This document shows positions 10,122-51,693 of a stretch of DNA of 64,000 nt, piece by piece. Each line of letters opens with the position of its first letter. The first letter of the stretch is position 1. Made by a program: the position numbers and the translations under genes. The notes under the pieces were generated by a model. It saw nothing but the letters and a program-made list of their open reading frames with translations. It was not told the origin of the DNA and ran no database searches. The DNA comes from Armatimonadota bacterium (GTDB taxonomy: Bacteria > Sysuimicrobiota > Sysuimicrobiia > Sysuimicrobiales > Sysuimicrobiaceae), in assembly GCA_025059775.1 (NCBI GenBank), contig JANXCW010000005.1, positions 62,001 through 126,000 on the forward strand. Reading direction: 5' to 3'.

Positions 10122-10158
10122 CCCTGGATCGCATTTCCCTCGGTCGCTCTCCCCATGG

Positions 10159-10196: not shown

Positions 10197-10212
10197 GTGG
10201 TTTCCCTCCGTT

Positions 10213-21604: not shown

Positions 21605-21693
21605 CTGATGCAGTACGGGGAAGGAAACTTAGTGCAGCCGGAGGATTGACGGACATTCCTCCCCCTCGCTGCCATGGGTGTGGTTGGAGGGGG

Positions 21694-27044: not shown

Positions 27045-27058
27045 AAGGAGGAGCGCCC

Positions 27059-29467
27059 ATGGCGGTGGTGAAGGAGCGGGAGGAAGTCTTCACGGTGGTG
27101 GGCCAGCGCCTTCCGCGGGTGGACGGTTGGGCCAAGGTGATGGGGCGGGCCCAGTACACGGACGACCTTTCCCTGCCGGGAATGCTCTTCGGCAAGCTCG
27201 CCCGCAGCACCCAGGCCCATGCCCGGATCCGGGAGATCCGGGTGCAGCGGGCCCTGGCACTGCCGGGGGTGGTGGCGGTTATCACCGGGAGAGATCTGCC
27301 CGTCCGCTACGGGGTGTTCCCCGTGGGCCAGGATGAAACCGCGCTCGCGGTGGACAAGGTGCGGTATGTGGGAGAGCCCGTGGCCGCGGTGGCCGCGGTG
27401 GACCCCTACACCGCAGAGGAGGCGGTCCGCCTCATCGAGGTGGACTACGAGCCGCTTCCCGCCCGCATGACCGTCGAGGAGGCCTTGGCGCACCCGGAGC
27501 CCCGCATCCACGACTACGGCCCCTTCGGGAACGTGCACCGGCTGGCGTCGCTGGAGTTCGGGGATGTGGAGCGGGGATTCGCGGAAGCGGACTACGTCCG
27601 GGAGGACCTGTTCTTCTATGAGGGCAGCACCCACGCGCCCATGGAGCCCCACAGCGCCCTCGCATGGTGGGATCCCGGGGCGAAGAAGCTCACCCTGTGG
27701 ACCTCCCACCAGGGGCCCCATTACCTGCACAAGGGGCTCGCCAAGGCCCTGCAGCTGGAGGAGCATCAGGTACGGGTCATCGTGCCCGCGGTAGGGGGCG
27801 GGTTCGGGGGGAAGCTGGACATCTTCCACCACGAGGTGTGCGCGGCCAAACTCAGCATGCTCACGGGCCGGCCCGTGAAGATCACCCTGACCCGGGAGGA
27901 GGTGTTCTACGCCCACCGGGGGCGGCATCCGGAACTTTTGCGCATCCGCACCGGCGTCACGCGGGACGGCCGGATTGTGGCCATGCACGTGGAGGCCTAC
28001 CTGGACGGAGGCGCGTACTGTTCCTTCGGGCCGGCGACCATGCTGTACGCGGGCACCCAGCAGCCCGTGAGCTACCGCATCCCGCACTACCGGTTCCAAG
28101 GGGTGCGGGTGTTCACCAATAAACCCCCCTGCGGGCCCAAGCGGGGACACGGGACCCCGCAGGCCCGGTGCGCCCTGGAGGTCCACCTGGACAAGCTGAG
28201 CGAGGACCTCGGGCTGGACCCTGTGGAGCTGCGGCTGCGCAACCTCACGGGGCCCAATGAGCTCACGGTGAACTGGCTGGAGATCACCAGCAACGGACTG
28301 CGGGCGTGCATCGAGAAGGTGGTGGAAGCGAGCGGCTGGTACCGCAAGCGCGGGCGGCTTCCGTACGGACGCGGCATCGGGTTCGCCTGCAGCGCCTACC
28401 TCACGGGAGCTGGGGGCTCCATCTACTTCAGCGACATGCCCCACTCCGAGGTGCACCTCCGGGTGGATCGCACGGGAGTGGTCACCGTGTACACCCTGGC
28501 CACGGAGATCGGACAGGGATCCGCCACCGCGGTGGCCACCATCGTGGCAGAGGTCCTGGGGCTGAGCCCGCAGGAGATCTGCCTCGTCACCTCTGACACA
28601 GATCTCACCCCCATCGACCTCGGCAGCTACAGCAGTCGCGTGACCCTCATGGTGGGCAATGCGGCCTACGAAGCCGCCTGCCGGGTGCGGAACCTCTTGC
28701 TGGAGGCGGTGGCGGAGCGACTCCAGGTTCCCCGGCATCGTTTGATCTGCCGGAACCGGCGCATCTACGACGCGGAGAACCCGGAGGTGGGAGCTTCCTT
28801 CGCCCAGGCGGCGCAGTGGGCGGAGGCGAAGTTCGGATGCCTGTCCACCTCTGGGAGCTACCGGCCGCCGGAGAAACTGGGCACCTACAAGGGATCGGGC
28901 GTGGGACCTTCTCCCACCTACACCTTCTCCGCCTGCGTGGCGGAGGTGCGGTGCGATCCAGAAACGGGGGAGGTGAAGGTGGAGCGGGTGTGGGTGGCCC
29001 ACGACATCGGCCGTGCCCTCAACCCTACCCTGGCGGAAGGTCAGGTGGAGGGCAGCGTGTACATGGCCCTGGGCGAAGCCCTGCTGGAGGAGCAGGCCTT
29101 TCGCAAGCACCTGCACCGGGGCCCCTCCCTCCTGGACTACAAGATCCCCACCATCCACGAGATGCCGGAGGTGATCACCCTCTTCGTAGATACCGAAGAC
29201 CCCCGGGCGCCCTTCAGCGCTAAGGAGGTGGGGCAGGGGCCGCTGCTGTGCGTCGTACCTGCAATCCTCAACGCCATCGTGGACGCCCTCAAGATCCGGG
29301 TGGACGAGGTCCCCGTGACCCCGGAGAAGATCCTCAAGGCCCTGGAGGAACGCCGAAAGGGACGGCCCGCCCGGGTGGGGCCCACCAAGCTTCCCCCCTT
29401 CTCCTTCCCTGCCCCCGAACGGGTGGCGCGGCCCCCGCAGTGGGAACTGGAGGCGAAACCCGCATAG
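27059..29467 (+). CDS. hcrA: 4-Hydroxybenzoyl-CoA reductase, molybdenum-cofactor (large) subunit
   Basis: This 802-residue catalytic subunit binds the molybdenum cofactor and would remove the phenolic hydroxyl of 4-hydroxybenzoyl-CoA, giving benzoyl-CoA. Family motifs are VGQRLPRVDGWAKVMGRAQY at the N-terminus, VGGGFGGKLD, a PPCGPKRGHGTPQ loop, TLATEIGQGSATAV and, near the C-terminus, FSAKEVGQGPL with the likely catalytic glutamate. A ribosome site AAAAGGAGG precedes the ATG. Other molybdenum hydroxylases share the fold. The reductase call comes from the four-cysteine loop in the adjacent medium subunit and the benzoyl-CoA reductase genes nearby. Moco would come from moeA/moaC-dependent synthesis. 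Confidence 0.9.
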   Translation: MAVVKEREEVFTVVGQRLPRVDGWAKVMGRAQYTDDLSLPGMLFGKLARSTQAHARIREIRVQRALALPGVVAVITGRDLPVRYGVFPVGQDETALAVDKVRYVGEPVAAVAAVDPYTAEEAVRLIEVDYEPLPARMTVEEALAHPEPRIHDYGPFGNVHRLASLEFGDVERGFAEADYVREDLFFYEGSTHAPMEPHSALAWWDPGAKKLTLWTSHQGPHYLHKGLAKALQLEEHQVRVIVPAVGGGFGGKLDIFHHEVCAAKLSMLTGRPVKITLTREEVFYAHRGRHPELLRIRTGVTRDGRIVAMHVEAYLDGGAYCSFGPATMLYAGTQQPVSYRIPHYRFQGVRVFTNKPPCGPKRGHGTPQARCALEVHLDKLSEDLGLDPVELRLRNLTGPNELTVNWLEITSNGLRACIEKVVEASGWYRKRGRLPYGRGIGFACSAYLTGAGGSIYFSDMPHSEVHLRVDRTGVVTVYTLATEIGQGSATAVATIVAEVLGLSPQEICLVTSDTDLTPIDLGSYSSRVTLMVGNAAYEAACRVRNLLLEAVAERLQVPRHRLICRNRRIYDAENPEVGASFAQAAQWAEAKFGCLSTSGSYRPPEKLGTYKGSGVGPSPTYTFSACVAEVRCDPETGEVKVERVWVAHDIGRALNPTLAEGQVEGSVYMALGEALLEEQAFRKHLHRGPSLLDYKIPTIHEMPEVITLFVDTEDPRAPFSAKEVGQGPLLCVVPAILNAIVDALKIRVDEVPVTPEKILKALEERRKGRPARVGPTKLPPFSFPAPERVARPPQWELEAKPA

Positions 29468-29476
29468 GAGGCGACC

Positions 29477-30478
29477 ATGCTGCGGCTACCCGGTTTCCAG
29501 CTCCACCGTCCTGCGAGTTTGTCGGAGGCTACGCGGATCCTCGCGGATCTGGGGCCGGAGGCGGTTCCCGTGGCCGGTGGGACGGATCTGTATCCCAAGA
29601 TGAAGCGCCGTCAGATCCTTCCGAAGCACCTGGTAAGCCTGCGAAGGATCCCGGAGCTGCGCGGCTTTCGGGGGGACCCTCAAGCGGGGCTGGTGATCGG
29701 GGCAGGATGCACCCTCGCGGAGATCGCGGCGCACCCCATGGTCCGCGTGGGCTACCCGGGACTCGCACAGGCGGTGGCCGTCTGCTCGAACCCCCTCCTC
29801 CACCAGATGGGCACCCTCGGTGGGAACCTCTGCCTCGACACCCGGTGCACCTACTACGACCAGACGGACCTGTGGCGGGAGGCCCTGGGGTGGTGCATGA
29901 AGGCCCCCGGCAGCTCGGACCCTACGGAAGTGCCCTGTCGGGTGGCCCCTGGAGGGGGGAGGTGCTGGGCGGTTTCCAGCGGCGATGGGGCCCCCATCCT
30001 CATCGCCCTGGGCGCGCGGGTCCGGCTCGTGGGATCCAGGGGGGAGCGGATCGTTCCCCTGGAAGAGCTGTACCGGGACGATGGCATCCGGTACCTGAAC
30101 AAGGCCCATGACGAGCTGGTGGCGGAGGTGCTGCTGCCTCCCGTGAACGGGGTGCGCAGCACGTACCGGAAGGTGCGCCGCCGGGGGAGTCTGGACTTCG
30201 CGGCCCTGGGCGTGGCGGTGGCATTGCAGCTGGGAACGGACGGAACCGTGCAGAGGTGCCGCATCGTCCTGGGCGGGGTGGCCTCACGCCCCCTGGTGTT
30301 GGAGGAGGCCGCAAACCTACTGGTGGGACAAAAGGTGGAGCCCGAGGTGCTGGAACGGGTGTCCGAGGCCGTGTACCGGGCCGTGCATCCCATGGACAAC
30401 GTGGACTTCACCGTGTACTATCGCCGGCGCATCGCCCCGGTGCAGGTCCGTCGGGCTCTTGAAGCCCTCGCGGCGTAG
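29477..30478 (+). CDS. hcrB: 4-Hydroxybenzoyl-CoA reductase, FAD subunit with extra [4Fe-4S] loop
   Basis: This 333-residue FAD subunit has the flavin motifs PVAGGTDLYPKM and MGTLGGNLCLDTRCTYYD. Between about residues 119 and 165 it carries a loop with Cys119, Cys124, Cys140, Cys154 and Cys163. In the Thauera enzyme a loop in this place holds an additional [4Fe-4S] cluster that other xanthine-oxidase family members lack, and the spacing here aligns well with it. This is the best evidence that the operon encodes a 4-hydroxybenzoyl-CoA reductase rather than a generic hydroxylase. It follows the large subunit by 9 nt and precedes an acyl-CoA ligase by 14 nt. Confidence 0.92.
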   Translation: MLRLPGFQLHRPASLSEATRILADLGPEAVPVAGGTDLYPKMKRRQILPKHLVSLRRIPELRGFRGDPQAGLVIGAGCTLAEIAAHPMVRVGYPGLAQAVAVCSNPLLHQMGTLGGNLCLDTRCTYYDQTDLWREALGWCMKAPGSSDPTEVPCRVAPGGGRCWAVSSGDGAPILIALGARVRLVGSRGERIVPLEELYRDDGIRYLNKAHDELVAEVLLPPVNGVRSTYRKVRRRGSLDFAALGVAVALQLGTDGTVQRCRIVLGGVASRPLVLEEAANLLVGQKVEPEVLERVSEAVYRAVHPMDNVDFTVYYRRRIAPVQVRRALEALAA

Positions 30479-30492
30479 AAGAGGGCCGGGAA

Positions 30493-32058
30493 ATGTTCCG
30501 CAACCCCTTTGTGGCCCCCTTCCCCACTCCCGAGGTCCCATGCTTCGAGCCCGTGGAACGGTGGGCCCGGACAGATCCGGACCGCCCCGTCCTCGTGTGG
30601 GCGCCCACGGGTCAGGTGGTGACCTACGGTCGCCTCTGGCATGCCTCCGGAAAGGTGGCGCGGGCTCTGCAGGAGCTGGGGGTAGGCAAGGGCGACCGGG
30701 TAGCCTTGCTCGCGCCGAATGCCCTGGAGCACCCCGTGGCCTTTTACGGGATCTTACGGGCAGGGGGCGTGGTAGTCCCCCTGAACCCCCTCCTGAAGCC
30801 TGCGGAAGTGGAGCGGTGCCTGAGTGAGACAGAGGCACGCGTGGTAATGGCTTCCCCGGAGTGGTGTCGGGAGCTGCAGGCACTTCCTCCAGCCTTGCCA
30901 TTCCTTCGCTGTGTCCTGAACCTGGCGGAGCTGCTGGCAACCACGGAACCGTTTGGGAGCCCGGACCCCATCCCGATCCAGCCCGACCGGGATCTCGCCT
31001 GCATCCTGTTCTCGAGCGGGACCACGGGGCTCCCGAAGGGAACGCAGCTCACCCACCGGAACGTGCTCGCGAACATCCTGGCAGGCCATGCCCTGGGATT
31101 TGTGAAGGAAGGCACGGTGTACGTACACTTCCTTCCCTTCAGCCACTGCTTTGGCCTGCTGACCCTGCTGAATGCGGGGATCTGCGTGGGAGCCCGGCAG
31201 ATCCTCCTACCGCAGTTCGACGCGCAGGAGGTCCTGTACTGGGTCGCGCACCATGGGGCCACGCAGCTGTACGCGGTTCCCCCTGCCCTGAGGGCCCTCG
31301 TGGAGGCCGCGGAGGCCCAGGGTTTTGCGTACCGGGGCCTCCGGTTCGTGAACACCGCGGCCCTCCCTCTGGATCCAGAACTGCAGCAACGGGCGGAGCG
31401 GGTGTTCGGGTGTCCCGTGACGGAGCACATAGGGATGACGGAGTGCGCGGGGCTCGCCAACCTCCTCCTCCCCCCCATGCCCCGAAAACCCCGGTCTGTG
31501 GGGCCGCCGGTGCCGAATCTGGAAGAGCGGGTGGTGGATCCGGACACAGGACGGGACCTGGGCCCCGGGGAGGTGGGAGAGCTCCTGGTGCGCGGCCCTA
31601 TGGTCACCGTCGGGTACTGGCGGAACCCGGAGGCGAACGAGGAAGCCTACCTGGAAGAGGGGTGGTTTCGCACGGGAGATCTCGTGCGCTTCGACGAGGC
31701 AGGATACATGTGGTGGGTGGACCGCCGCAAGGAGATGATCAAGTACAAGGGCTACTCCATCGCCCCCGCGGAGCTGGAGGAGATCCTGCGCCAGCACCCC
31801 GCGGTCCGCGAGGCGTGCGTGATCCCAAAGCCCGACCCGGAGGTGGGGCAGATTCCCAAGGCCTTCGTGGTGCCTCACGGAGAGGTCACCGCGGAGGAGC
31901 TGCTGCGGTTCGTGGAGGAACGGGTGGCCCCCTACAAGAAGGTACGGGAGGTGGAGTTCGTGTCCGGGCTTCCGAAGTCCGCGGTGGGCAAGGTGCTCCG
32001 AAAGGTGCTCGCGGAGCGGGAACGCCGTCGGGCCGTGGGAGCCACCACCCGATCCTGA
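30493..32058 (+). CDS. AMP-forming acyl-/aryl-CoA ligase
   Basis: This 521-residue member of the acyl-adenylate family has [18 protein letters not shown], a MTECAG motif, [29 protein letters not shown] and the terminal lysine segment [13 protein letters not shown]. It resembles 4-coumarate-CoA/fatty-acid ligases more than the benzoate-CoA ligase at 21.7 kb. Sitting directly after the reductase subunits, it is a good candidate for activating 4-hydroxybenzoate or another phenolic or alicyclic acid. The substrate cannot be proved from sequence. It is co-transcribed with the hcr genes (14-nt gap) and followed 14 nt later by a crotonase. Confidence 0.88.
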
Positions 32059-32072
32059 TGTGGGAGGGAAGC

Positions 32073-32882
32073 ATGCGCGGAGCGGACCTGAAACCCCAGC
32101 ACTTCCTGTGGGAGGTACAGGAGGAGGTCGCCACCATTACCCTGAACCGGCCGGAACGGAAAAATCCTCTTACCTTCGAGAGCTACGCGGAGCTGCGGGA
32201 TACGTTCCGCATCCTGAACCGGATGGAGGATGTGAAAGCGGTGGTGATCACCGGAGCGGGGGGCAACTTCTGCTCCGGAGGGGATGTCCACGAGATCATC
32301 CGGCCTCTCCTGGACATGGACGTGCGTGGGAAGCTGGAGTTCACCCGGATGACGGGGGATCTGGTGATCGCCATGCGGCACTGCCCGCAGCCCCTCATTG
32401 CTGCGGTGGACGGGGTCTGCGTGGGAGCGGGTGCCGTGATCGCCGCCGCGTGCGACCTGCGCCTGGGAACCCCCCGCAGCCGGGTGGCCTTCCTCTTCGT
32501 GCGGGTGGGGCTTGCGGGTTCGGATATGGGCGCGTGCGCCCTGCTTCCCCGCCTTGTGGGCCTGGGGCGGGCCGCGGAGCTTCTCTACACGGGTCGTGAA
32601 ATGCGCGGGGAGGAGGCGGAACGGTGGGGCTTCTTCAACCGCCTGTGCCCGCCGGAGACCCTCCTGCAGGAGGCCCAGCAGCTGGCGCGGGAGATCGCGC
32701 AGGGCCCTACCTTCGCGCACGCCATGACCAAGCGCATGCTGCACAAGGAGTGGGACATGTCCCTGGACGAGGCCATCGAATCCGAGGCGCAAGCCCAGGC
32801 CCTGTGCATGTTCACCCGGGATTTCGCCCGCGGATACCAGGCCTTTGTGGAGCGCCGTAAACCCACCTTCGGGGGCGACTAG
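32073..32882 (+). CDS. Non-canonical crotonase-family protein lacking both catalytic glutamates
   Basis: This 269-residue crotonase has the CoA/oxyanion loop [10 protein letters not shown]. It has Val where the first catalytic glutamate is expected ([12 protein letters not shown]) and Phe at the second (AFLFVRVGL). Instead there is Asp151 in [16 protein letters not shown]. Enzymes of this fold without the two glutamates often catalyse isomerisation, C-C hydrolysis or ring chemistry rather than simple hydration. In this cluster it could do the ring-opening or a related step, since no standard ring hydrolase is seen. I chose the ATG at 32073 because GGGAGGG precedes it; an ATG at 32058 is possible. 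It abuts the next gene. Confidence 0.8.
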
Positions 32883-34072
32883 TGGACCGCGACCACCTAC
32901 TCTGGCCCTTCTTCGGGGAAGCCCACCGCCGCCTGGCGCGGGAGCTGGAGACGTGGGCCCGGCGGGAGGTGGGACCGCTCGCGGCCCGGGAGGAGGAGGA
33001 TCCGGAGGGGATGAGCCGGGAGCTCGTGCGCCGGCTGGGGGAGGCGAGTTGGCTGAGGTACTGCGTTCCCCGGGCCTACGGGGGGATGTTCGATAGCCTG
33101 GATGTGCGCAGCCTGTGTCTGGCCCGCGAGATTCTCGCGGGATACTCCGGACTGGCGGACTTCGCCTTCGCCATGCAGGGGCTGGGGAGTGCGCCCATCA
33201 CCCTCTTCGGGAGCGATGCCCTGCGGACCCGCTACCTCCCGGAGGTAGCAAGCGGTCGCCGCATCGCGGCCTTCGCCCTCTCGGAGCCCCAGGCGGGTTC
33301 GGACGTCGCCGGGATCACCACCTCCGCCCGGCGCACGCAGGAGGGGTATGTGCTGGAGGGGGTGAAGACCTGGATCTCTAACGCGGGAGTGGCGGACTTC
33401 TACGTGGTATTCGCCCGCACGGGAGGTCCCGGAAAGGAAGGGCTTAGTGCTTTCGTGGTGGACGCGGATACCCCGGGGCTAGAGGTGAGCGAGCGGATCC
33501 AGGTCCTTGCCCCGCATCCCCTCGGGACCCTTAACCTCCGCGGCTGCCATGTTCCGGCGAGCCACCGGCTAGGGGAGGAAGGACAGGGGTTTGAGGTAGC
33601 CATGCGGACCCTGGACGTTTTCCGCCCGACGGTGGGAGCTGCGGCCCTGGGGTTCGCCCGCCGGGCTTTTCACGAGGCGTTGGAGTTCGTGCAGCGGCGG
33701 GTGGCGTTCGGGCAGGTCCTGAGCCGGTTCCAGATGGTGCGGGAGAAGCTGGCTTGGATGGCCCTGGAGGTGGACGCGGCGGCCCTGCTGGTGTACCGGG
33801 CCGCGTGGGTGAAGGACGAGCTGGGCCAGCGGGCCACCCGGGAGGCCTCCATGGCCAAGCTGTACGCCACGGAGGCCGCACAGCGGGTGGTGGACAGCGC
33901 GGTGCAGCTGTGGGGGGCGCGGGGGGTGGTGCACGGGAGCCCCGTGGAGCGACTGTACCGGGAGGTACGGGCGTTGCGCATCTACGAGGGGACCTCGGAG
34001 ATCCAGGCCCTGGTGGTGGCTCAGGAGGTCCTCCGGTCCGCACCGTCGGAGCGCGTGGAGGAGGCTCCATGA
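32882..34072 (+). CDS. Acyl-CoA dehydrogenase
   Basis: This 396-residue FAD acyl-CoA dehydrogenase would oxidise a saturated acyl-CoA and pass electrons to an electron-transfer flavoprotein. Motifs are [56 protein letters not shown] and [10 protein letters not shown] with the catalytic Glu. The GTG start overlaps the previous stop by one base, and the 3' end overlaps the next crotonase by 4 nt (ATGA). In benzoate-degrading bacteria similar enzymes act on pimeloyl-CoA or cyclohexanecarboxyl-CoA, so either is plausible. No ETF gene is in the window. Confidence 0.9.
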
Positions 34073-34833
34073 CGGAGCGCGCGGTGGAGGTCCGGTACGA
34101 GGAGGGCACCTGCTGGGTCACCCTGAACCGGCCGCCCCACAACATCCTCACCATTGCGGTGATGCGGGAGCTCGCGCGTATCCTGCGCTCGGCCGCGGAG
34201 GACCGTACGGTGCGGGCCGTGGTTCTGGGGGCCCGGGGGCGGTCCTTCTCCGCAGGGGTGGACGTGGCGGAGCACACCGCGGAAAAGGTGCACGGGATGC
34301 TGGAGGCCTTCCACGACCTGTGCCATACCCTGGTTTCGCTCGACGTGCCCACGGTGGCCTCAGTCCAGGGGCCTGCGTTGGGGGGTGGGTGCGAGGTGGT
34401 GGCCCTATGCGACGTAGTGGTGGCCGCGGAGGAGGCCACCTTCGGGCAGCCCGAGATCCGGGTGGGGGTGTTTCCGCCCGTCGCTGCGGCCACCTTTCCC
34501 TTCCTCTTCGGCAAACGCGGGATCTCCCTCCTCCTCACCGGCGAACTCCTCCCCGCCCGGCGGGCCCAGGAGCTGGGGCTGGTGACGGAGGTGGTCCCCC
34601 AGGAGCAGCTGGAGGAGGCGGTGCGACGGGTGGTGGGGCAGCTCCAGGCCCACAGCGGAGCGGTCCTTCGCCTGGCGAAGCGGACGGCCGTCGCTACGTT
34701 CCGGCGGTGGTTTGCGGAGGCATTGCAGGAAGCGGAGCACCTCTACCTGGGGGAGCTCATGGCCACGGAGGACGCCCACGAAGGGCTCCGGGCCTTCCTG
34801 GAGAAGCGCGGGGCCAGCTGGAAACATCGATGA
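34069..34833 (+). CDS. Cyclohexa-1,5-dienecarbonyl-CoA hydratase-like crotonase
   Basis: This 254-residue crotonase begins [20 protein letters not shown] and has [32 protein letters not shown] and [19 protein letters not shown]. The first and second catalytic glutamates are kept. The GVDVxEH and GVFPPVAA signatures are, as I recall, features of the dienoyl-CoA hydratases (Dch/BamR) that add water to the product of benzoyl-CoA reductase, rather than of short-chain enoyl-CoA hydratases. Its place just ahead of the reductase operon supports this. It overlaps the acyl-CoA dehydrogenase stop by 4 nt. Generic enoyl-CoA hydratase is the alternative. Confidence 0.78.
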
Positions 34834-35646: not shown

Positions 35647-36807
35647 GTGGACGAGCTGGAACGGATCTTTGACGACCTGAGGGCCCTGGTGGAGGATCCC
35701 ACCTTCCCCGAGGTCCGGCGGTGGCTGGCGGCAAACCCGGACGGCAAGGTGGTGGGTTCCTTCCAGGTGTTCTTTCCAGAGGAGATCGCGCATGCCGCGG
35801 GCATGCTCCCCATCAAGATCGCGGGCGCGGGGGGGACCATCCAGGTACGCCAGGCGGATGCCCGCATCGCAGCCTTTGTGTGCTCCATCGTGCGGAGCTC
35901 CCTGGAGCTGGCCCTCTCCGGGCGGCTGGACTTCCTGAGCGTAATGGTGGTTCCCAACATCTGCGACGCGGCCCGGAATGCGTGCGGGGTGTGGGTCCGC
36001 AGCTTCCCGCACCTGCGGGTGGAGACCCTCTACCATCCCCACAACGCGGCGAGCGCACACGCGGTGGACTATCTGGTGGGGGAATACCGACGCATCGGCC
36101 GGATCCTGGAGGAGCTGGGTGGCCGCCCCATCACGGACGAAGCCCTGCGGGCCAGCATCGCGCTGTTCAATGAGAACCGCAGGCTCCTCCGGGAGCTCTA
36201 CCGGATCAAGCGGGAGACCCCTTGGCTGGTGAGCGCGGTGGAGAGCTACCTCCTGGTGCGCTCCGCGGGCCTCATGCCTCGGGAGGAGCACAACGCGCTC
36301 CTACGCAGGGTACTGGAGCTGCTCCCGCATCGGCCCACCAAGAAGCAGGATCGCATCCGGGTGGTGTTCGAGGGCGGATTCTGCGAGCAACCCCCCCTGG
36401 ACATGCTGGCGGTCATCCAGAACGCCTGCTACATCGTGGACGATGACCTCATGATCGGCCTGCGGTGGATCACGGAGGACGTACCGCTGAAAGGCGACCC
36501 CTGGCGGAACCTGGCGGACAGCTACCTGAACCGCTCCAGCTACAGTCCCGTGCAGCGGGATCCCCGCAAGCCCAAGGCGGAGATGCTCCTGCGCCGCATC
36601 CGGGCTTCCGGGGCGGAGGCGGCCATCGTGGCCGCGGCGAAGATGTGCGAGCCGGGGCTGGAGGAACAGGTTCACTACAGCCGCGCTCTGGAGGCTGCGG
36701 GCATTCCCCACCTGGTCATGGAGTTCGAGGAGACCATGACGGTCTTCGAACAGGTGGGGATGGAGGTGGAGACCTTCGCGGAATCCCTGCTGTTCCAGTT
36801 CACCTGA
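35647..36807 (+). CDS. bzdN: Class I benzoyl-CoA reductase, BzdN/BcrC-like subunit
   Basis: This 386-residue protein of the 2-hydroxyacyl-CoA dehydratase D family is one of the two ring-reducing subunits of ATP-dependent benzoyl-CoA reductase. Conserved segments are SFQVFFPEEIAHAAGMLPIK, Cys79 in FVCSIVRSS, NICDAARNACG, EGGFCEQPP and KMCEPGLEEQVHYSRALE. These are typical cluster-binding and substrate-site regions. Length is close to known BcrC/BadD/BzdN (about 380-390). The GTG start is 25 nt after the GACTGACC operator candidate. The next gene follows 11 nt after its stop. The complex reduces the aromatic ring to a 1,5-diene using reduced ferredoxin and ATP and is oxygen-sensitive. Confidence 0.92.
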   Translation: MDELERIFDDLRALVEDPTFPEVRRWLAANPDGKVVGSFQVFFPEEIAHAAGMLPIKIAGAGGTIQVRQADARIAAFVCSIVRSSLELALSGRLDFLSVMVVPNICDAARNACGVWVRSFPHLRVETLYHPHNAASAHAVDYLVGEYRRIGRILEELGGRPITDEALRASIALFNENRRLLRELYRIKRETPWLVSAVESYLLVRSAGLMPREEHNALLRRVLELLPHRPTKKQDRIRVVFEGGFCEQPPLDMLAVIQNACYIVDDDLMIGLRWITEDVPLKGDPWRNLADSYLNRSSYSPVQRDPRKPKAEMLLRRIRASGAEAAIVAAAKMCEPGLEEQVHYSRALEAAGIPHLVMEFEETMTVFEQVGMEVETFAESLLFQFT

Positions 36808-36818
36808 CGGAGGCCACG

Positions 36819-38105
36819 ATGAGTGCACCCACCGAGGGGATCCTGGGAGCGACCCGACGGGAAGGCAAGCGGCTCATGGACCTATGGTGGCAGGAGATGA
36901 CGGAAGCCGCCCAGACGGGGCGGCCCACCGCATACGTGTTCGCCATGGGGTCCATGGCGGAGTTGCTCCGCACCTTCGACTTCGTGCTGAACTTCCCGGA
37001 GATCACCTCCCTGCAGATCGCGGTCCGCGGGCAGTCCCAGGCGTACATCCAGGCCGCGGAGGACTACGGGTTCTCCCCGGACGTATGCGGTTACGTGAAG
37101 GCGGACGTGGGGCTCCAGCTCCGGCAAGGGGAACATCCATATGGAAGGGTCCCCCGTCCCTCCCTGGTGGTGACCTCCAATGTCTGCAACACCTACATTA
37201 AGTGGTCCGAGATCTGGGAGCACCTCTACGGCTGCCCCGTGTTCGTGGTAGACCTGCCCGGGTGGCGGGGCCGGGAATCCGCGGCTCTGGACGGGGAGAC
37301 CTTCCGCAACGACGCCCGCTACGTCCAGGGGCAGCTGCAGGAGCTGATCGGGCTGTGCGAGCAGATTACGGGCAGGCGCTTCGACGTAGACCGATTCCGG
37401 GAGCACCTGGCGGAAGCGAACCGAATGGCAGAGCTCTACAACGCGGTCTGCGAGACGAATCGTCACATCCCCGCTCCCTTCAACGCCGTCGTGGAGGGGG
37501 TGACCTATCAGGGGATCGCGCACCTGTACCGGGGAAGCCAGGAGGGAAGCCGGTACTTCCAACAGGTGCTCCAGGAGATGCAGGAGCGCATTCGGCTCGG
37601 CATGGCCGCGGTGCCGGACGAGCGGTTCCGGTTGGTCCTCGTGGGGACCACCTGCTACAGCCACTTTCGTCGCTTCGTGGAGCTCTTCGCCTCCTGGGGG
37701 GGTGTATTTGTGCACAGCACCTACATGGTCTTCGCGGGAGGCGGCTTCCTTCCGGGCTTCGCGTACGATCTGAGTCGGCCCCTGGAGAGCTTCGCGGAGC
37801 GCATGGTGGCCGCCGCATACTGGGGCTACACGGGATCCATGTTCTACCAGCAGGATTGGCTAGATGAGGTGGTGCGGCGGTGGCACGTGGACGGAATCTG
37901 CTTTCACGGCGTGAAGTCCTGCCGTACGGTCTCCACGGGTTTACCGGATGTGCGGGAGTGGATGCGGATTCAGCGAAACGTCCCCGGGCTCTTCATTCAG
38001 TCAGACCTCGTGGATCCGCGTCTGTGGTCCGACGCGCAGGTCAAGAACCGGGTGGATGCCTTCTTCGAGGCTCTGGCAGCCCACAAGGCGGCGACAAGGA
38101 GGTGA
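36819..38105 (+). CDS. bzdO: Class I benzoyl-CoA reductase, BzdO/BcrB-like subunit
   Basis: This 428-residue protein is the second dehydratase-fold subunit of the ring-reducing module. It has [75 protein letters not shown] and [13 protein letters not shown]. The cysteines in these segments are the likely cluster ligands. Length fits BcrB/BadE/BzdO (about 430-450). It lies between the BzdN-like and the first ATPase subunit with short gaps, so the four reductase genes form one operon in the order N-O-P-Q. Confidence 0.92.
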
Positions 38106-38112
38106 GGAACAC

Positions 38113-38970
38113 GTGGTCATCGCAACCCGTACGCTGGTGGCTGGAGTAGACGTGGGGAGCACGCAGACCAAGGCGGTGATCATGAACCTGAACCGGATCA
38201 TCGTGGGTCGGGCCTTGGTGGACACGGGTGCCCGGCTGAACGAGGCGGCCCGGACGGCCTTCGAGGCCGCTCTGCAGGACGCGGGGGCCTCGGAGGACGA
38301 GGTGGCCTACACCGTGGGCACCGGATATGGCCGGTTCAAGGTGGAGTTCGGGAACACCCAGGTTACGGAGATCAGCTGCCACGCCCGGGGTGCAGTGTTC
38401 CTCTTTCCGAACACGCGCACGGTGCTGGACGTGGGTGGGCAGGACACCAAGGCCATTCGGGTCGGACCCAACGGCGAGGTCCTGGACTTCTGCATGAACG
38501 ATAAATGCTCCGCGGGCACGGGACGGTTCCTGGGCGCCGCGAGTGCAGCCCTGGAGCTGCCCCTGGGAGAGCTGGGGCCCCTTGCCCTCACCGCCCGCAA
38601 CCCCGTTACCATCACCACCACCTGCACGGTGTTCGCGGAGTCGGAGATCCTGGGATGGCTCGCCCGAGGCCGGAAGGTGGAGGACATTCTCATGGGGGTG
38701 CATGCGGCCATCGCGGCCCGTAGCCTCTCCCTGCTGCGCCGGGTTGGGATCGAGCCGGAGCTGACCTTCACGGGCGGGGTCTCCCGGAATGTGGCCATGG
38801 TGCACCTCATTCGCCAGCTCAGCGGGGTACCCGTGAACGTGAGCGAGGAATCCCATTACTGCGGCGCCATCGGGGCCGCCCTCTTTGCCCTGGACCACGT
38901 CCTGGTGGGGGAACGGGTGCCCGTGGCGGCCGGAGCAGGAGGGGGAGAGGATGCTGGTCGCGGGCATTGA
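38113..38970 (+). CDS. bzdP: Benzoyl-CoA reductase ATPase (activator) subunit, BzdP-like
   Basis: This 285-residue BadF/BcrA-family ATPase drives electron transfer to the ring by ATP hydrolysis. ATP-binding motifs of the acetate-kinase/actin fold are [12 protein letters not shown] and [12 protein letters not shown]. Cys132 ([12 protein letters not shown]) and Cys171 ([11 protein letters not shown]) are the ligands for the [4Fe-4S] cluster shared between two ATPase subunits. The GTG start follows GGAGGTGA. The protein is short like BzdP, whereas Thauera BcrA is much longer (over 400 residues, from memory). The 3' end overlaps the next gene by 20 nt. Confidence 0.92.
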
Positions 38971-39754
38971 CGTGGGCGCCACGTACACAAAGGCGGTTCT
39001 TCTGGTGGACGGGAACGTGGTGGGTCGGGCCATGCTGCCCACAGGCTTTAACTTCGCCCGGGCCGCGGAACGGACTCTGCAGGCGGCCCTGGAGGAGGTG
39101 GGCTTGCGCCGGGAGGAGGTGGGCTATGTGGCCACCACGGGCTACGGCCGGCACATGGTGCCCTTCCGGGACCTGGCCGTCACGGACCTTACGGCCCAGG
39201 CCTGGGCCGTCCACCGCATGTATCCCGAAGCCCGCACCATCCTGGACATCGGGGGACAGAACGTGAAGGCCATCCGGGTGGACGAGCGTGGGCGGGTTCG
39301 GGCCTTTCGCCTCAACGACAAGTGTGCGGCGGGCAGCGGGGCCTTCCTGGAAAAGACCATGCGGTACATGGGCTACACCCCCGCGGACATCGCGCGGCTG
39401 GCGGAGGCGGCGAGGGAACCCGCGGTGGTGAGCAGTGTGTGTGCGGTCTTCGCGGAGAGCGAGGTCATCAACCACCTGGTGGCAGGCCGCAGCCCGGAGG
39501 ACGTGTGCGCGGGAGCCATCGTGGCCCTGGCGGAGCGTGCGGGGCAGCTGATCAAGCGGCTGCGCGGGGAACCCGCGTACGTGCTTACGGGTGGGCTCGT
39601 CCGGGTTCCCCTCATGCGCCGGCAGCTGGAGCAGAACCTCAAGGTCCAGTTCCTGGTGCCCCCCGAGGAGGAGGGTGTATATGTGGCGGCCCTAGGAGCG
39701 GGCCAACTGGCGCAGGAGCGGCTGCACAGACTCGGAGAGCGGGCCACGGCCTAG
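38951..39754 (+). CDS. bzdQ: Benzoyl-CoA reductase ATPase (activator) subunit, BzdQ-like
   Basis: This 267-residue second ATPase subunit pairs with the preceding one to form the activating heterodimer. It has [24 protein letters not shown], Cys125 in [12 protein letters not shown] and Cys164 in [12 protein letters not shown], so each ATPase subunit brings two cysteines to the bridging cluster. The ATG lies inside the end of the BzdP-like gene (20-nt overlap). Having two distinct ATPase genes separates this from the homodimeric activators of 2-hydroxyacyl-CoA dehydratases and supports benzoyl-CoA reductase. No ferredoxin gene follows. Confidence 0.92.
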
Positions 39755-39769
39755 CGGGAGGTGAGACGG

Positions 39770-40645
39770 GTGCCGGAAGATGTGAAGGCCATCGACTTCA
39801 TGTACTACGTGGCCACCCCGGAGTTCATCGCCCGATGGAACCAGGCCAAGGAGGGGGAGTTGGTGTGCCGCATGGAGCGGGCCCTCGGCGGCAGCCTCCC
39901 CAGCTTCCCCAGCATCGAGGCCATGCTGCGTGCCATGGATGAGGCGGGCGTGGAGAAGGTCTTCATCACCCAGTGCAAGATGTGGTCCTACCGCAACCAC
40001 TGGATGTACATGGACACGCAGCTGGAGGAGGTCCTCCAGTACACCACCCGCTACCCGGACCGGTTCGTGGGGCTCGCGGGATACAACCCCTACCGGATCC
40101 CGGAGAGCCTGAAGGAGATCGAGCGGGCCGTGAAGGAGTACGGCTTTCGGGGTGTGTACGTGCACATCTACGGCTTCGATATCCCCCTCCATGACCGGCG
40201 CATGTACCCCCTCTACGCCAAGTGCGTGGAGCTGGACGTCCCGGTCTCCATGCAGGTGGGGCACGTGCTAGAGGGTCAGCCCTCGGAGCACGGCCGGCCC
40301 ATCTACCTGGATTGGATCCTGTGCGACTTCCCCACCCTGAAGGTCATCGGCGCGCACACGGGCTGGCCGTGGGTGGAGGAGCTCATCTCCGTGTGCTACA
40401 AGTGGGACACGGTGTGGATCGGCATCGATGCCTGGATGCCCAAGTACCTGAAGCCGGAACTCGTGCGCTTCATGAACAGCCGTCTGGGGCAGGACCGGTG
40501 CCTGTGGGGCACGAATGGCCTTCCCTGGAAGGAGAGCCTGCAGCAGCTGCGGGAGCTGGGCCTGAAGCCGGAGGTGTACCGGAAAGTGGTGCGGGACAAC
40601 GCGGTGGCCCTGTTCCGGTTGGGAACGCCGGTCGGTGTGGGATAG
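39770..40645 (+). CDS. Amidohydrolase-2-family TIM-barrel protein with altered metal site
   Basis: This 291-residue protein has the overall layout of the ACMSD/resorcylate decarboxylase family. Where the family has an N-terminal HxH metal motif it has AIDFMYYVATPEF. The second-ligand region reads VSMQVGH with Gln in place of His. The third keeps His (VIGAHTGWPWVEELI), and the final conserved Asp is Asn (LWGTNGLPW). It may therefore be metal-free or use a different metal site. The gene directly follows bzdQ and precedes a BadH-like dehydrogenase, so a role in the ring-reduction pathway is likely. Hydrolysis, decarboxylation or chaperoning are all possible. GTG 39770 is chosen because GGAGGTGA precedes it by 5 nt. 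Confidence 0.75.
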   Translation: MPEDVKAIDFMYYVATPEFIARWNQAKEGELVCRMERALGGSLPSFPSIEAMLRAMDEAGVEKVFITQCKMWSYRNHWMYMDTQLEEVLQYTTRYPDRFVGLAGYNPYRIPESLKEIERAVKEYGFRGVYVHIYGFDIPLHDRRMYPLYAKCVELDVPVSMQVGHVLEGQPSEHGRPIYLDWILCDFPTLKVIGAHTGWPWVEELISVCYKWDTVWIGIDAWMPKYLKPELVRFMNSRLGQDRCLWGTNGLPWKESLQQLRELGLKPEVYRKVVRDNAVALFRLGTPVGVG

Positions 40646-40657
40646 GGAGGAGGGGCC

Positions 40658-41413
40658 ATGGAGTTTCGGGATCAGGTGGCGCTCGTCACAGGTGGGGCCA
40701 GCGGCATCGGTCGGGCCACGTGCCTGGGATTCGCCGCCCGGGGGGCCCGGGTGGGGGTAGCGGACGTCAACCGGGAGGGCGCGGAGGCCGTGGCGGAGGA
40801 GATCCGCCGCGCGGACGGCCAAGCCCTGGCGGTCCCTATGGACGTCGCGGATCGGGCCAGCGTGGTGGCCGGATTACAGGGGGTTCTGGAGGCGTGGGGA
40901 CGTGTGGATATCCTGGTGAACGCCGCAGGTTGGGATCGCATCGTGCCCTTCCTGGAGAGCACGGAGGATCTGTGGGATCGGATCATCGCCATCAACTTCC
41001 GGGGGGTGCTCAACACCTGCCATGTGGTCCTCCCCCACATGGTGGCCCAGGGCGGGGGCGTGGTGGTGAACATCAGCTCCGATGCGGGTCGGGTGGGGTC
41101 CAGCGGGGAGACGGTGTACTCGGGGGCGAAGGGGGCGGTGATCGCCTTCAGCAAGGCCCTGGCCCGGGAGGTGGCCCGGTACAACATCCGGGTCAACGTG
41201 GTGGCTCCGGGAATCACGGACACGCCCCTCCTGCGGCAGATCATCGAGGCAGGCAACGAGAAGCTCATCGAGGCCATCGTCCGCTCCACGCCCATGCGAC
41301 GCATGGCCCGCCCGGAGGAGGTGGCGGAGGCGGTGCTGTTTCTGGCCTCCGATCGTGCCTCCTTCATCACGGGCCAGACCCTCAGCGTCTCGGGCGGACT
41401 CACCATGGTGTAG
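40658..41413 (+). CDS. Short-chain dehydrogenase, BadH-like (2-hydroxycyclohexanecarboxyl-CoA dehydrogenase type)
   Basis: This 251-residue NAD-dependent short-chain dehydrogenase has TGGASGIGRATC, DILVNAAGWDRIVPF, the catalytic YSGAK and the C-terminal TGQTLSVSGGLTM. The segments NISSDAGRVGSSGE, NAAGWD and SVSGGLTM closely resemble Rhodopseudomonas BadH as I recall it, which oxidises the ring hydroxyl before ring opening. In this cluster it would oxidise the hydroxycyclohexene- or hydroxycyclohexane-carbonyl-CoA formed after ring reduction and hydration. The BadH name is inferred from similarity. Other short-chain dehydrogenases cannot be fully excluded. GGGAGGAGG precedes the ATG. Confidence 0.85.
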   Translation: MEFRDQVALVTGGASGIGRATCLGFAARGARVGVADVNREGAEAVAEEIRRADGQALAVPMDVADRASVVAGLQGVLEAWGRVDILVNAAGWDRIVPFLESTEDLWDRIIAINFRGVLNTCHVVLPHMVAQGGGVVVNISSDAGRVGSSGETVYSGAKGAVIAFSKALAREVARYNIRVNVVAPGITDTPLLRQIIEAGNEKLIEAIVRSTPMRRMARPEEVAEAVLFLASDRASFITGQTLSVSGGLTMV

Positions 41414-41415
41414 CC

Positions 41416-41955
41416 GTGCGGTCCACGGAAGAGCTCATTCGGGAACACGAGGTCATCTTGGGAGCCCTGGAGGGGCTGGAACGCCACCTCCGGCAGGCGC
41501 AGGGAGGCGGTGCCCTCCAGCCCGGGTATGTGCGGGACCTGGTGGCCTTCTGCCAGGGGTTTGTGGACCGGTGTCACCATGGGAAGGAGGAGCACTGCCT
41601 GTTCCCCTGTCTGGAGCGGCGGGGGATTCCCCGGGAGGGTGGGCCCATCGGGGTGATGTTGATGGAGCACGAGATGGGCCGGCAGCTGGTGCGCCGGATC
41701 GCGGAGGCCGTGGAACGCTACGAGGGGGGGCAGTCCACAGTCGAGGCGGTGGTAGAGCTGGGGTGGCAGTACCTGGAACTGCTACGCGCCCACATCGCCA
41801 AGGAGAACGAGATCCTCTTCCCCATGGGGGAGGCGGTGCTGCAGGTGGAGGATGACGGACAGGTGGGGCGCTGCTACGATGGAGTCGAGCACGTACAGGG
41901 GGAAGGAGAACACCAACGGCTGACGCAGCTGGCCGAGCGCCTGCGCGGAGGATGA
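41416..41955 (+). CDS. Hemerythrin HHE-domain protein
   Basis: This 179-residue helical protein has the diiron-type ligand pattern: His11 (REHEVILGALE), His54/His55 with Glu59 (CHHGKEEH), His85 (LMEHEMGRQL) and His126 with Glu130 (RAHIAKENEILFP). Hemerythrin-like proteins bind oxygen or nitric oxide, or store iron. The GTG start lies 2 nt after the dehydrogenase stop, and the stop overlaps the TetR gene by 4 nt. Inside an operon for an oxygen-sensitive Fe-S reductase, an oxygen-sensing or oxygen-scavenging role is a reasonable inference. Confidence 0.88.
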   Translation: MRSTEELIREHEVILGALEGLERHLRQAQGGGALQPGYVRDLVAFCQGFVDRCHHGKEEHCLFPCLERRGIPREGGPIGVMLMEHEMGRQLVRRIAEAVERYEGGQSTVEAVVELGWQYLELLRAHIAKENEILFPMGEAVLQVEDDGQVGRCYDGVEHVQGEGEHQRLTQLAERLRGG

Positions 41956-49231: not shown

Positions 49232-49672
49232 ATGGGGGAGCGCCGGATCATCAACCCGCCCTCGCTTCCCGCCCCCAGAGGGTACAGCCATGGAGTCCTC
49301 GTGCGGGGCGGTGACCTGTTGTTCCTGGGAGGTCAGGACGGCAGCGATCCCGAGGGCCGGCTTGCCCCGGATCTCGTGGGACAGTTCCGGCAGGCCCTGG
49401 CCAACCTGCAGGCGGTGGTGGAGGCGGCAGGGGGAACCCTCCAGGACGTGGTGAAGCTCAACATCTTCGTGCGGGATCGTGCGGCCTACCTGGAGCATCG
49501 GAGATCCCTCGGGGAGGTGTTCCGGGCGTTCTTCGGCGGATACTACCCCGCCATGGCCCTCTTCGAGGTCACCGGCTTCTTCCGGGAGGAGGCCTTGGTG
49601 GAGATCGAGGGGATCGCGGTGATCCCGCAGAAGGAGAGGGGGACGTGCGGGAGGAGACGACGAGGCGCGTAG
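49232..49672 (+). CDS. Rid-family (YjgF/YER057c/UK114) protein lacking the catalytic arginine
   Basis: This 146-residue single-domain Rid protein has LLFLGGQDGSDPEGRLAPD, LANLQAVVEAAGGTLQDVVKLNIFVRD and ALVEIEGIAVIP. RidA proper has an arginine in the PAR(S/T) motif that is needed for imine deamination. Here that place reads YYPAMALFEV, so the arginine is replaced by methionine. The protein therefore more likely belongs to a Rid subfamily without classic imine deaminase activity. It is 39 nt ahead of tryptophan 2,3-dioxygenase and in the same direction, so it may act on an intermediate of that pathway. Confidence 0.85.
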   Translation: MGERRIINPPSLPAPRGYSHGVLVRGGDLLFLGGQDGSDPEGRLAPDLVGQFRQALANLQAVVEAAGGTLQDVVKLNIFVRDRAAYLEHRRSLGEVFRAFFGGYYPAMALFEVTGFFREEALVEIEGIAVIPQKERGTCGRRRRGA

Positions 49673-49711
49673 CCGCCGGGAATGGACCACGCCGGGAAAG
49701 GGGGGGTGAGC

Positions 49712-50524
49712 ATGGAAGCGCGGATCAAGCCGCTCACCTACGGTTCGTACATTCGGACGGACGACCTGCTCTCCCTCCAGACACGCCTCAGTGGCGCGCA
49801 CGATGAGCTGCAGTTCATCATCGTCCACCAAGTATTCGAGCTGTGGTTCAAGCTCCTGCTCTTCGAGCTGGAGTCCGTACGGGAGGCCCTGAACCGGGAT
49901 GAGCCGCGGGGGGCCGTGCGCCTGTTGCGGCGGGTGGCGGAGATCTGCCGGGTCATGACGGGGGGATTTGACGTGCTGGAGACCATGCGGCCCTGGGACT
50001 TCCTGGAGTTCCGGTCGCGTCTACGGCCGGCAAGCGGCTTCCAGAGTCGGCAGTTCCGGGAGGTGGAGTTCCTCTCGGGCCTGAAGGATCCCCGGTACCT
50101 CCGGAGCTTCGAGGGGGAGCCCGAGGACTGGAAGGTGCTCCGGCGACGACTGGAGGAGCCTAGCGTATGGGACGCCTTCGTGGGCCTGCTGTGCCGTCGG
50201 GGCCTTACGACCTCCCCCGAGGCGGAACTGCTCCACACCCTCATCCGCATCCATCGGGAGCCCGCGCTCCTGGACCTGGACGAGCTGTGCGAGGCTCTCC
50301 TGGACTACGACGAGGCCTTCTCCCTGTGGCGACACCGCCACGTACTCATGGTGGAACGGATGATCGGGGCCCGGCCCGGGACAGGACAGGAGGACGTCCA
50401 GCGGACCGTGGGATCCTCCGAGGGGAGCTACTTCACCGGGGTGGACTACCTGCGGGCCACCCTCTCCAAGCGGTTCTTCCCCCTCCTGTGGAAGGCCCGC
50501 ACCTTCGTGGAGCGGGAGGAATGA
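49712..50524 (+). CDS. kynA: Tryptophan 2,3-dioxygenase
   Basis: This 270-residue heme enzyme opens the indole ring of tryptophan with molecular oxygen, giving N-formylkynurenine. Family features are YGSYIRTDDLLSLQ, HDELQFIIVHQVFELWFKL, DFLEFRSRLRPASGFQS, and the heme-ligand region WRHRHVLMVERMIGARPGTG with DYLRATLSKRFFP. The ATG at 49712 is preceded by GGGGGGTGAG; an ATG at 49682 is less likely. It overlaps the next gene by 4 nt. It shows that the organism can use oxygen, in contrast to the oxygen-sensitive ring reductase nearby. Confidence 0.92.
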   Translation: MEARIKPLTYGSYIRTDDLLSLQTRLSGAHDELQFIIVHQVFELWFKLLLFELESVREALNRDEPRGAVRLLRRVAEICRVMTGGFDVLETMRPWDFLEFRSRLRPASGFQSRQFREVEFLSGLKDPRYLRSFEGEPEDWKVLRRRLEEPSVWDAFVGLLCRRGLTTSPEAELLHTLIRIHREPALLDLDELCEALLDYDEAFSLWRHRHVLMVERMIGARPGTGQEDVQRTVGSSEGSYFTGVDYLRATLSKRFFPLLWKARTFVEREE

Positions 50525-51693
50525 GGGATCCGCTGCTGCGTTGGCGGGAGGAGTTCCCCATCCTGACCCGCACCACCTACCTGGTCTCCCACTCCATGGG
50601 GGCCATGCCCCGGTCCGCCTGGATGTGGGTGGAGCGGTACCTCCGGGCGTGGGAGGAGCGGGGCGTGCTGGCCTGGGAGGAATGGGAGACATCCCTGCGC
50701 GAGCACGCGGACCGGATCGCGGCCCTCCTCCGGGCTCCCGCGGGAAGCGTGGTGCTGCACCAAAACGTCTCCACCCTGTTTGGCGTCCTCCTCTCGGCCT
50801 TGGTACGGCCGCGCGGCCGTACCAAGGTGGTGGCCACGGATCTCAACTTTCCCTCCCTGCTCTACGCGCTCCAGATGCACGGGGACCTCGGCGTGCGCCT
50901 CCACCTCGTCCGCAGCCCGGACGGGATCACCGTTCCCCCGGAAGCGTGGGAGGAAGCGGTGGATCCGGACACCCTCGCGGTGGTGGTGGACCACGGGATC
51001 TTCCGATCGGGGTTCCTGCAGGACGTGGGAGCTATCGCGGCGATGGCCCACCGGTGCGGGGCCTGGGTCATCGTGGACGCCTACCAAACCGCAGGCTGCG
51101 TACCCATCGATGTGCAAGCCTGGGGCGCGGATGTGGTGCTGGGGGGTTCCCACAAGTGGCTGTGCGGGGGGCCGGGGGCCGCGTGGATGTACGTGCGCCC
51201 CGATCGGATCCCGGAGCTGCGGCCGCGGGTGGTGGGATGGTTCAGCCACCGGACGCCGTTTGCCTTCGAGCTCCAGGTGGACCTGGCACCGGATGCCAGG
51301 CGCTTCCTGACAGGGACGCCCGGGATCTCCGGGCTGTTCGCGGCGCGGGCAGGGCTGGAGGTGGTGCTGGAGGTGGGGGTGGAGGCCATCCGGGAGAAGT
51401 CCGTGCGACTCACCCAGCGCATGATCGAGCGGGCGGACGAGCTCGGGCTTCGAGTCCGTACCCCGCGGGACCCTGCACGGCGGGGCGGGATGGTGGTGGT
51501 GGATTTTCCCGGTGCGGAACAGGTGGCCCAACAGCTCGTGCGCCGGGGCATCCTCGTGGACTACCGGCCGCAGGCCGGCATCCGGATGTCCGCCCACTTC
51601 TACACCCATCCCGATGAGGTAGAGCGCGTCTTCGAAGCGATCCAGGAGCGAGTAGCCCGAATGGTGTCGTCGCCTCATCCCGGCGAGGGATGA
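50521..51693 (+). CDS. kynU: Kynureninase-like class V PLP enzyme
   Basis: This 390-residue PLP enzyme starts FPILTRTTYLVSHSMGAMPRSA in the manner of class V aminotransferases and has the PLP lysine in GGSHKWLCGGPGAAWMYV. The WLCGGPG element and the coupling to tryptophan 2,3-dioxygenase (ATGA overlap) suggest kynureninase, which splits kynurenine into anthranilate and alanine. The general class V aminotransferase/desulfurase family is the alternative. No kynurenine formamidase gene is next to it. The product anthranilate could enter aryl-CoA metabolism. Confidence 0.78.
   Translation: MRDPLLRWREEFPILTRTTYLVSHSMGAMPRSAWMWVERYLRAWEERGVLAWEEWETSLREHADRIAALLRAPAGSVVLHQNVSTLFGVLLSALVRPRGRTKVVATDLNFPSLLYALQMHGDLGVRLHLVRSPDGITVPPEAWEEAVDPDTLAVVVDHGIFRSGFLQDVGAIAAMAHRCGAWVIVDAYQTAGCVPIDVQAWGADVVLGGSHKWLCGGPGAAWMYVRPDRIPELRPRVVGWFSHRTPFAFELQVDLAPDARRFLTGTPGISGLFAARAGLEVVLEVGVEAIREKSVRLTQRMIERADELGLRVRTPRDPARRGGMVVVDFPGAEQVAQQLVRRGILVDYRPQAGIRMSAHFYTHPDEVERVFEAIQERVARMVSSPHPGEG

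Follow-up and report, generated by a model that had tools for sequence, protein, structure and literature searches.

Metal-less amidohydrolase-fold proteins encoded beside methylbenzoyl-CoA-reductase-type genes: candidate ring-opening hydrolases of the benzoyl-CoA pathway

In the benzoyl-CoA pathway, the steps known to follow the reductase are catalysed by a hydratase, a dehydrogenase and a ring-opening hydrolase, namely Dch, Had and Oah in Thauera or BadK, BadH and BadI in Rhodopseudomonas (PMC1924859). For another ring opening, an enzyme of a different superfamily has been considered: ThnN, which belongs to the amidohydrolase superfamily and is encoded in the thn operon, is put forward in a 2025 review as the best candidate for the opening of naphthalene ring I (PMC12016498). 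According to the same source, oah is absent from the naphthalene degraders N47 and NaphS2, a metal mechanism is assumed for ThnN, and BamU is a homologue of unknown function (PMC12016498). Here, we describe a gene at positions 39770–40645 of a 64 000-nucleotide stretch (the window) of an Armatimonadota bacterium (assembly GCA_025059775.1, contig JANXCW010000005.1, positions 62 001–126 000). This gene codes for an amidohydrolase-fold protein, hereafter AMH, whose metal-site residues are replaced and which may take the ring-opening place beside an aryl-CoA reductase.

Barrels of the ACMSD type bind their metal through an HxH pair on strand 1, a histidine on strand 5 and an aspartate on strand 8, and a strand-6 histidine is catalytic. 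AMH belongs to the same superfamily, as it matches Pfam Amidohydro_2 (PF04909) with 119 bits (cut-off 26), and its AlphaFold model is a TIM barrel (pLDDT 88.5, pTM 0.89) with 3irs as best match in the PDB (TM-score 0.74), followed by LigW, dihydroxybenzoate decarboxylases, LigJ and ACMSD. No NCBIfam model matched, the profiles for the crotonase-fold Oah/BamA (TIGR03200) and BadI (TIGR03210) included. The alignment shows that the ligands of strands 1, 5 and 8 are all missing and that only the strand-6 histidine is kept. A first-pass annotation had read these replacements from the sequence, and the alignment bears them out: IDFMYYV stands in place of IDxHxH, a Gln in SMQVG and an Asn in LWGTNG-LPW replace the two later ligands, and GAH is retained; at the strand-8 motif, relatives carry GSDYP. 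A paralogue of the same genome (L058, 32% identical to AMH), with an intact site reading HVH, HTG, AH and GSDYP, fixes the register of the alignment. M11, Y13, H132, Q162, H196 and N249 are all placed at the C-terminal ends of barrel strands.

These replacements are not a peculiarity of one genome. A single scan of genome contigs, most of them from metagenome bins, yielded an orthologue set of 56 loci, 59–92% identical apart from one archaeal copy at 48% (L055). The loci come from Armatimonadota, Acidobacteriota, Rokubacteria, Binatota, ‘Deltaproteobacteria’, Myxococcota, Fraserbacteria, Acetothermia, Planctomycetota, Methylomirabilota, Dehalococcoidia and others, approximately ten phyla overall. 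M11, Y13, Q162, H196 and N249 do not vary among 53 aligned orthologues, and the archaeal copy, with L and P at the strand-1 pair, has the same Q, H and N elsewhere. Purifying selection on the gene is strong (dN/dS 0.08–0.13 against five orthologues). With five positions invariant in the 53 orthologues and a low dN/dS, the substitutions are fixed rather than the result of decay; the site was rebuilt and has been maintained. A pseudogene or a sequencing error is ruled out by the intact reading frame, the ribosome-binding site, the 56 orthologous loci and the low dN/dS, and a change owing to chance or local to one genome by the invariance across orthologues.

From these alignments, we infer that the folded protein carries no bound metal. 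It could alternatively be a metal enzyme with new ligands, for example H132, H165, E168, H196 and D220, as H132, E168 and H196 are invariant and, by secondary structure, lie near the barrel mouth, where H165 is nearly invariant as well. Such a site is possible and would count against a metal-free reaction, but H165 is Tyr in both L051 and L055, D220 is Ser in L055 and H132 varies in more distant metal-less relatives, which makes this explanation improbable.

The gene is tightly embedded in a reductase operon: it starts 15 bp past the second activase gene, whose stop codon ends at 39754, and a short-chain dehydrogenase/reductase (SDR) gene begins 12 bp after it, at 40658. The first-pass annotation had placed it ‘directly after bzdQ’, which holds for the position behind the second activase gene and fails for the bzd label. 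Indeed, the two catalytic subunits score 410 and 413 bits against MbdO and MbdN of the solved 3-methylbenzoyl-CoA reductase, versus 99 and 133 bits against BzdO and BzdN, and remain under the cut-offs of the NCBIfam benzoyl-CoA reductase models. Because the Mbd scores far exceed the Bzd scores, the sequence assigns this reductase to the 3-methylbenzoyl-CoA-reductase type (MBR) rather than to the bzd type.

The association with reductases extends to the orthologues. At least 41 of the 56 loci have aryl-CoA reductase genes within approximately 10 kb of AMH; in many of the others, the contig breaks off near it. The same substitutions recur in every close orthologue, next to such genes in approximately ten phyla, and none of the 56 loci has an orthologue with intact ligands in this context; the proposal of a repurposed barrel forming a distinct family tied to aryl-CoA reductases is thereby borne out. 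A non-catalytic role, as scaffold, chaperone or channel partner of the reductase or the SDR, could account for the loss of all four canonical ligands and for the position of AMH immediately next to reductase or SDR genes. However, the conserved residues sit at the C-terminal strand ends, where active sites lie, AMH is 70–80% conserved across phyla versus approximately 33–60% for most of the adjoining reductase catalytic subunits, and relatives exist without any reductase. We therefore hold such a role to be hardly probable.

A dehydrogenase lies near AMH in 49 of the 56 loci (SDR in 45, mostly as direct neighbour, Had-type in four, never both) and a crotonase in 31, and Oah lies near it in none. 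Among 22 AMH genomes, Oah (TIGR03200) exceeded its cut-off in two, G006 and G020, and BadI (TIGR03210) in none; Had (TIGR03201) did so in one of the AMH genomes tested. In the window genome (99.2% complete), the profile search found none of the three, the apparent BadI match at G000:C6:4454-5236 being MenB (425 bits, cut-off 343). The Oah search does detect Oah: 24 of 111 Desulfotomaculia genomes and seven of 145 in the class of G008 gave hits of 465–678 bits.

Co-occurrence within classes points the same way. For 145 genomes of an Acidobacteriota class, AMH was found in 15, a BcrC-type reductase subunit in 14, both in 13 and Oah in none (Fisher p = 1e-15). The two apparent AMH-only genomes have other reductase genes adjoining AMH (L074, L077), and the single BcrC-only contig ends just past the activases. 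In the class of G008 (145 genomes), AMH occurs in eight, BcrC in 20 and both in seven (p = 2e-6), and Oah in seven, of which one also has AMH; in five of the reductase-only genomes, the contig stops short of the expected AMH position or right at it. G400 is a true exception, as its reductase–SDR cluster is complete on the contig and has no AMH. This MBR-type cluster (L117, G400:C97) is followed by ferredoxin and 2-oxoacid:ferredoxin oxidoreductase-like genes, a possible source of electrons. Over three classes combined, 22 genomes have AMH only, 29 Oah only and two both. Where the surroundings of Oah are visible, in G006 and G399, it accompanies a second, divergent reductase (27–30% identical to that of the window), AMH of G006 being with the MBR type; the idea that AMH and Oah are alternatives for one and the same reductase was softened accordingly.

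The gene order in a Myxococcales locus (L042) is instructive: reductase genes BcrCBAD are followed by Had (453 bits, cut-off 339), a Dch-like hydratase (258 bits, cut-off 292) and AMH, and the genome has no match to Oah or BadI. AMH occupies there the place that Oah would hold. A Had-type dehydrogenase without SDR is likewise found in L009, L012 and L036. Outside G014 and G007, Had is missing from AMH genomes; in these two, it takes the place of the SDR within the cluster. Since L042, L009, L012 and L036 have the Had type instead of the SDR, the dehydrogenase is exchangeable, with AMH as the constant partner.

We propose, with a probability of roughly 55%, that AMH is a metal-free ring-opening C–C hydrolase for a beta-oxo acyl-CoA, replacing Oah or BadI in the upper benzoyl-CoA pathway with an MBR-type reductase; its substrate, its reaction and the roles of its residues are what we infer from sequence and gene content. 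Of the options listed in the first-pass annotation, ring opening is thus the one that fits the gene content. AMH would add water to the ring ketone and break the ring C–C bond, yielding (hydroxy)pimelyl-CoA, as Oah/BamA or BadI do elsewhere. H196 would act as the base for water, Y13, Q162 and N249, at the former ligand places, together with H132 and E168, could hold the oxyanion, and the thioester enolate would be the leaving group. As the thioester would take up the negative charge as enolate, zinc would not be needed. Crotonase-fold enzymes demonstrate that metal-free C–C hydrolysis of such ketones is possible. Decarboxylation, also put forward in the first-pass annotation, is rejected as the principal function, since the decarboxylases of this barrel family (ACMSD, LigW and gamma-resorcylate decarboxylase) need their metal; moreover, we know of no decarboxylation before ring opening in the benzoyl-CoA pathway.

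Several observations weigh against this proposal. Besides G400, which has a complete reductase cluster and no AMH, G006 and G020 hold both AMH and Oah. Other crotonases, of which there are many per genome, could also open rings, as ThnL shows (PMC12016498). A candidate of this kind in the window, the PRK08258-family crotonase, is weakened by the fact that close relatives occur in only few other AMH clusters, and it keeps a small residual chance of being the ring opener.

The presence of crotonase genes near AMH in no more than 31 of 56 loci makes a role as hydratase conceivable: AMH might, on the model of LigJ, hydrate the cyclic dienoyl-CoA or a remaining double bond, with a crotonase encoded elsewhere opening the ring. 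LigJ, which shares the fold and acts as a hydratase, is matched by AMH in both structure and sequence searches, and the Oah reaction itself includes a hydration step. However, Dch-like hydratases already adjoin AMH in L042 and L012, LigJ requires its metal, and a ring-opening enzyme is precisely what AMH genomes miss; we hold such a role to be unlikely, though not negligible.

BamU raises a further objection to ring opening. Geobacter metallireducens induces this ‘amidohydrolase’ 10-fold on benzoate although Oah is present (PMC1924859), so that a place in such a cluster does not by itself make an amidohydrolase-fold protein a ring opener. Similarly, a distant relative of AMH in L132 (G183:C1:437000-456000, at 9513–10448; 235 bits), with F-x-G, Q, H and N at the ligand positions, is immediately followed by BamB-like class II reductase genes (1045 bits to 4z3w), and Oah is present in that genome as well; the relative is possibly a BamU orthologue. 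Because of BamU beside Oah and this L132-type relative, the wider family may have more than one function. AMH could accordingly be a thioesterase, an isomerase or an enzyme clearing side products, like BamU beside a working Oah in Geobacter, but this would leave the absence of Oah, BadI and Had from most AMH genomes unexplained, and we consider it very improbable. A ring-opening hydrolase remains our preferred interpretation of AMH.

The wider family (35–43% identity, 215–280 bits) is situated in other acyl-CoA gene clusters and has members on plasmids of Paracoccus, Comamonas, Variovorax, Rhizobium and haloarchaea. The Paracoccus plasmid relative lies with CoA-transferase, acyl-CoA dehydrogenase, hydratase and SDR genes, and neither BadI nor a thiolase is annotated in that stretch. 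In Desulfotomaculia, members adjoin genes for acyl-CoA ligase, acyl-CoA dehydrogenase, hydratase, SDR and thiolase. Most of these relatives are also without the strand-1 pair and the strand-5 His, yet retain the strand-8 Asp. The first-pass annotation had tied the loss of the site to the reductase operon; this stands only for the Asp-to-Asn change and the two-residue loop deletion behind the Asn, which alone mark the reductase-linked branch. Since these three ligands are absent from most of the wider-family relatives as well, ligand loss probably began, as far as these alignments indicate, before the link with the reductase. In a quick tree, the reductase-linked branch and its nearest neighbours received 99% support, the deeper joins being unsure because of long branches.

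Other members of the superfamily differ again at these positions. The relative in L129 and L131 (Desulfotomaculia) has W, Q, Q, H and D there, next to CoA ligase, acyl-CoA dehydrogenase, hydratase and SDR genes. Cyclohexanecarboxylate-CoA ligase is the second-best match of the CoA ligase in these clusters, and L129 has a shikimate dehydrogenase gene; an alicyclic-acid pathway is possible. A second distant relative of the kind found in L132, in L133 (G188:C37), is clustered with a glycyl-radical enzyme, its activase and genes resembling a benzylsuccinate-type beta-oxidation set. A separate Amidohydro_2 branch (L097–L101) shows R-x-R, Thr and Ala at ligand positions and retains the strand-6 His; since its ligands are also replaced, metal loss seems to have happened in more than one branch.

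The genes around AMH in the window are listed in table 1. Because 4-hydroxybenzoyl-CoA reductase-like and benzoate-CoA ligase genes lie upstream, benzoyl-CoA, which the former would supply, is the likely substrate of the reductase in this genome, methylated or other substrates being possible elsewhere. For the same reason, a naphthoyl-type substrate is not favoured in the window, although other genomes may differ. The reductase operon is followed, 8 kb downstream, by genes resembling those for tryptophan 2,3-dioxygenase, kynureninase and RidA (49232–51693), which could, together with this operon, lead tryptophan via anthranilate toward benzoyl-CoA. After the SDR gene, positions 41416–41955 code for a hemerythrin-like protein, and about a dozen further loci also have such genes close to AMH; the protein may serve to protect the reductase from oxygen.

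Table 1. Genes of the reductase region in the window, and sites within and just upstream of AMH.
Feature	Position	Strand	Remarks
Benzoate-CoA ligase family protein	21646–23286	+	506 bits, cut-off 375
Three 4-hydroxybenzoyl-CoA reductase-like genes	26550–30478	+	alpha subunit 831 bits, cut-off 995
Acyl-CoA ligase	30493–32058	+	
PRK08258-family crotonase	31917–32882	+	true start near 32060; in few other AMH clusters
Acyl-CoA dehydrogenase	32882–34072	+	
Crotonase	34063–34833	+	dienoyl-CoA hydratase among best NCBIfam matches (TIGR03189 166 bits, cut-off 292)
MBR-type aryl-CoA reductase catalytic subunit, MbdN-like	35647–36807	+	
MBR-type aryl-CoA reductase catalytic subunit, MbdO-like	36819–38105	+	
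Reductase activase (ATPase) subunit 1	38110–38970	+	
Reductase activase (ATPase) subunit 2	38951–39754	+	‘bzdQ’ of the first-pass annotation
GGAGG ribosome-binding site	39757–39761	+	8 bases 5' of the AMH GTG, read directly from the sequence
AMH, metal-less amidohydrolase-fold protein	39770–40645	+	291 amino acids, GTG start, stop ends 40645
M11-Y12-Y13 codons	39800–39808	+	replace strand-1 HxH metal ligands; HxH reads M-x-Y
H132 codon	40163–40165	+	strand 4 end, invariant in family; candidate catalytic or substrate-binding residue
Q162 codon	40253–40255	+	replaces strand-5 metal-ligand His (SMQVG)
E168 codon (QVGHVLE)	40271–40273	+	invariant in family; candidate catalytic or substrate-binding residue
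H196 codon (GAH)	40355–40357	+	sole canonical residue kept; catalytic His position of ACMSD-type enzymes
N249 codon (GTNG)	40514–40516	+	replaces strand-8 metal-ligand Asp; two-residue deletion follows
SDR dehydrogenase, BadH-like	40658–41413	+	TIGR03206 302 bits, cut-off 431; commonest AMH neighbour across loci

Many uncultured phyla have MBR-type reductases without Oah or BadI, so that their pathway for aromatic degradation looks incomplete at ring opening. If the proposed function is right, AMH closes this gap and provides a marker gene, and a metal-dependent superfamily has been turned to metal-free acyl-CoA chemistry. More tentatively, with chances somewhat short of even, these proteins could form a new class of metal-free amidohydrolase-fold C–C hydrolases for dearomatized cyclic beta-oxo acyl-CoAs, spread over approximately ten phyla, replacing Oah or BadI in MBR-type pathways and perhaps including ThnN and BamU. 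The matter bears on both of the latter, ThnN being the leading candidate for the opening of naphthalene ring I (PMC12016498) and BamU being induced on benzoate (PMC1924859): should they share the metal-less site, metal-seeking assays would mislead. We found no literature linking a metal-less amidohydrolase with MBR-type reductases. As far as the literature searched shows, the general idea is already in print for one operon (ThnN), whereas nothing has been published on the family as such, on the loss of its ligands, on how widely it occurs or on its pairing with a missing Oah.

Compared with known systems, AMH would resemble Oah/BamA and BadI in its proposed reaction and in its place in the pathway beside reductase, hydratase and dehydrogenase. 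It differs from them in fold, an Amidohydro_2 TIM barrel as opposed to a crotonase fold with no sequence relation, and AMH and Oah are seldom found in one genome. The Mbd pathway for 3-methylbenzoate in Azoarcus sp. CIB and the 4-methylbenzoate pathway in Magnetospirillum pMbN1 share with the pathway proposed for the window a dedicated methylbenzoyl-CoA reductase and downstream steps to hydroxy(methyl)pimelyl-CoA; pMbN1 opens the ring with an Oah of its own (Oah-2; PMC4268860), whereas the MBR-type clusters described here carry AMH instead.

Within the barrel superfamily, ACMSD, the gamma-resorcylate and 5-carboxyvanillate decarboxylases and LigJ have the fold and the strand-6 catalytic His in common with AMH, but they act on free acids rather than on CoA esters, and their four metal ligands are replaced in AMH. 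The closest solved structure both by sequence (E = 3e-23, 26% identity) and by fold is 3irs/3k4w (BB4693 of Bordetella bronchiseptica), an uncharacterized TIM barrel that has also lost the strand-5 and strand-8 ligands at the aligned positions. Finally, ThnN (N47_E41360 and NPH_5899) and BamU (Gmet_2147) are, like AMH, amidohydrolase-superfamily proteins coded in aryl-CoA reductase clusters; set against AMH by description only, they differ in that their clusters contain a tetrahydronaphthoyl-CoA reductase and a class II Bam reductase, respectively, and they are plausible relatives of AMH.
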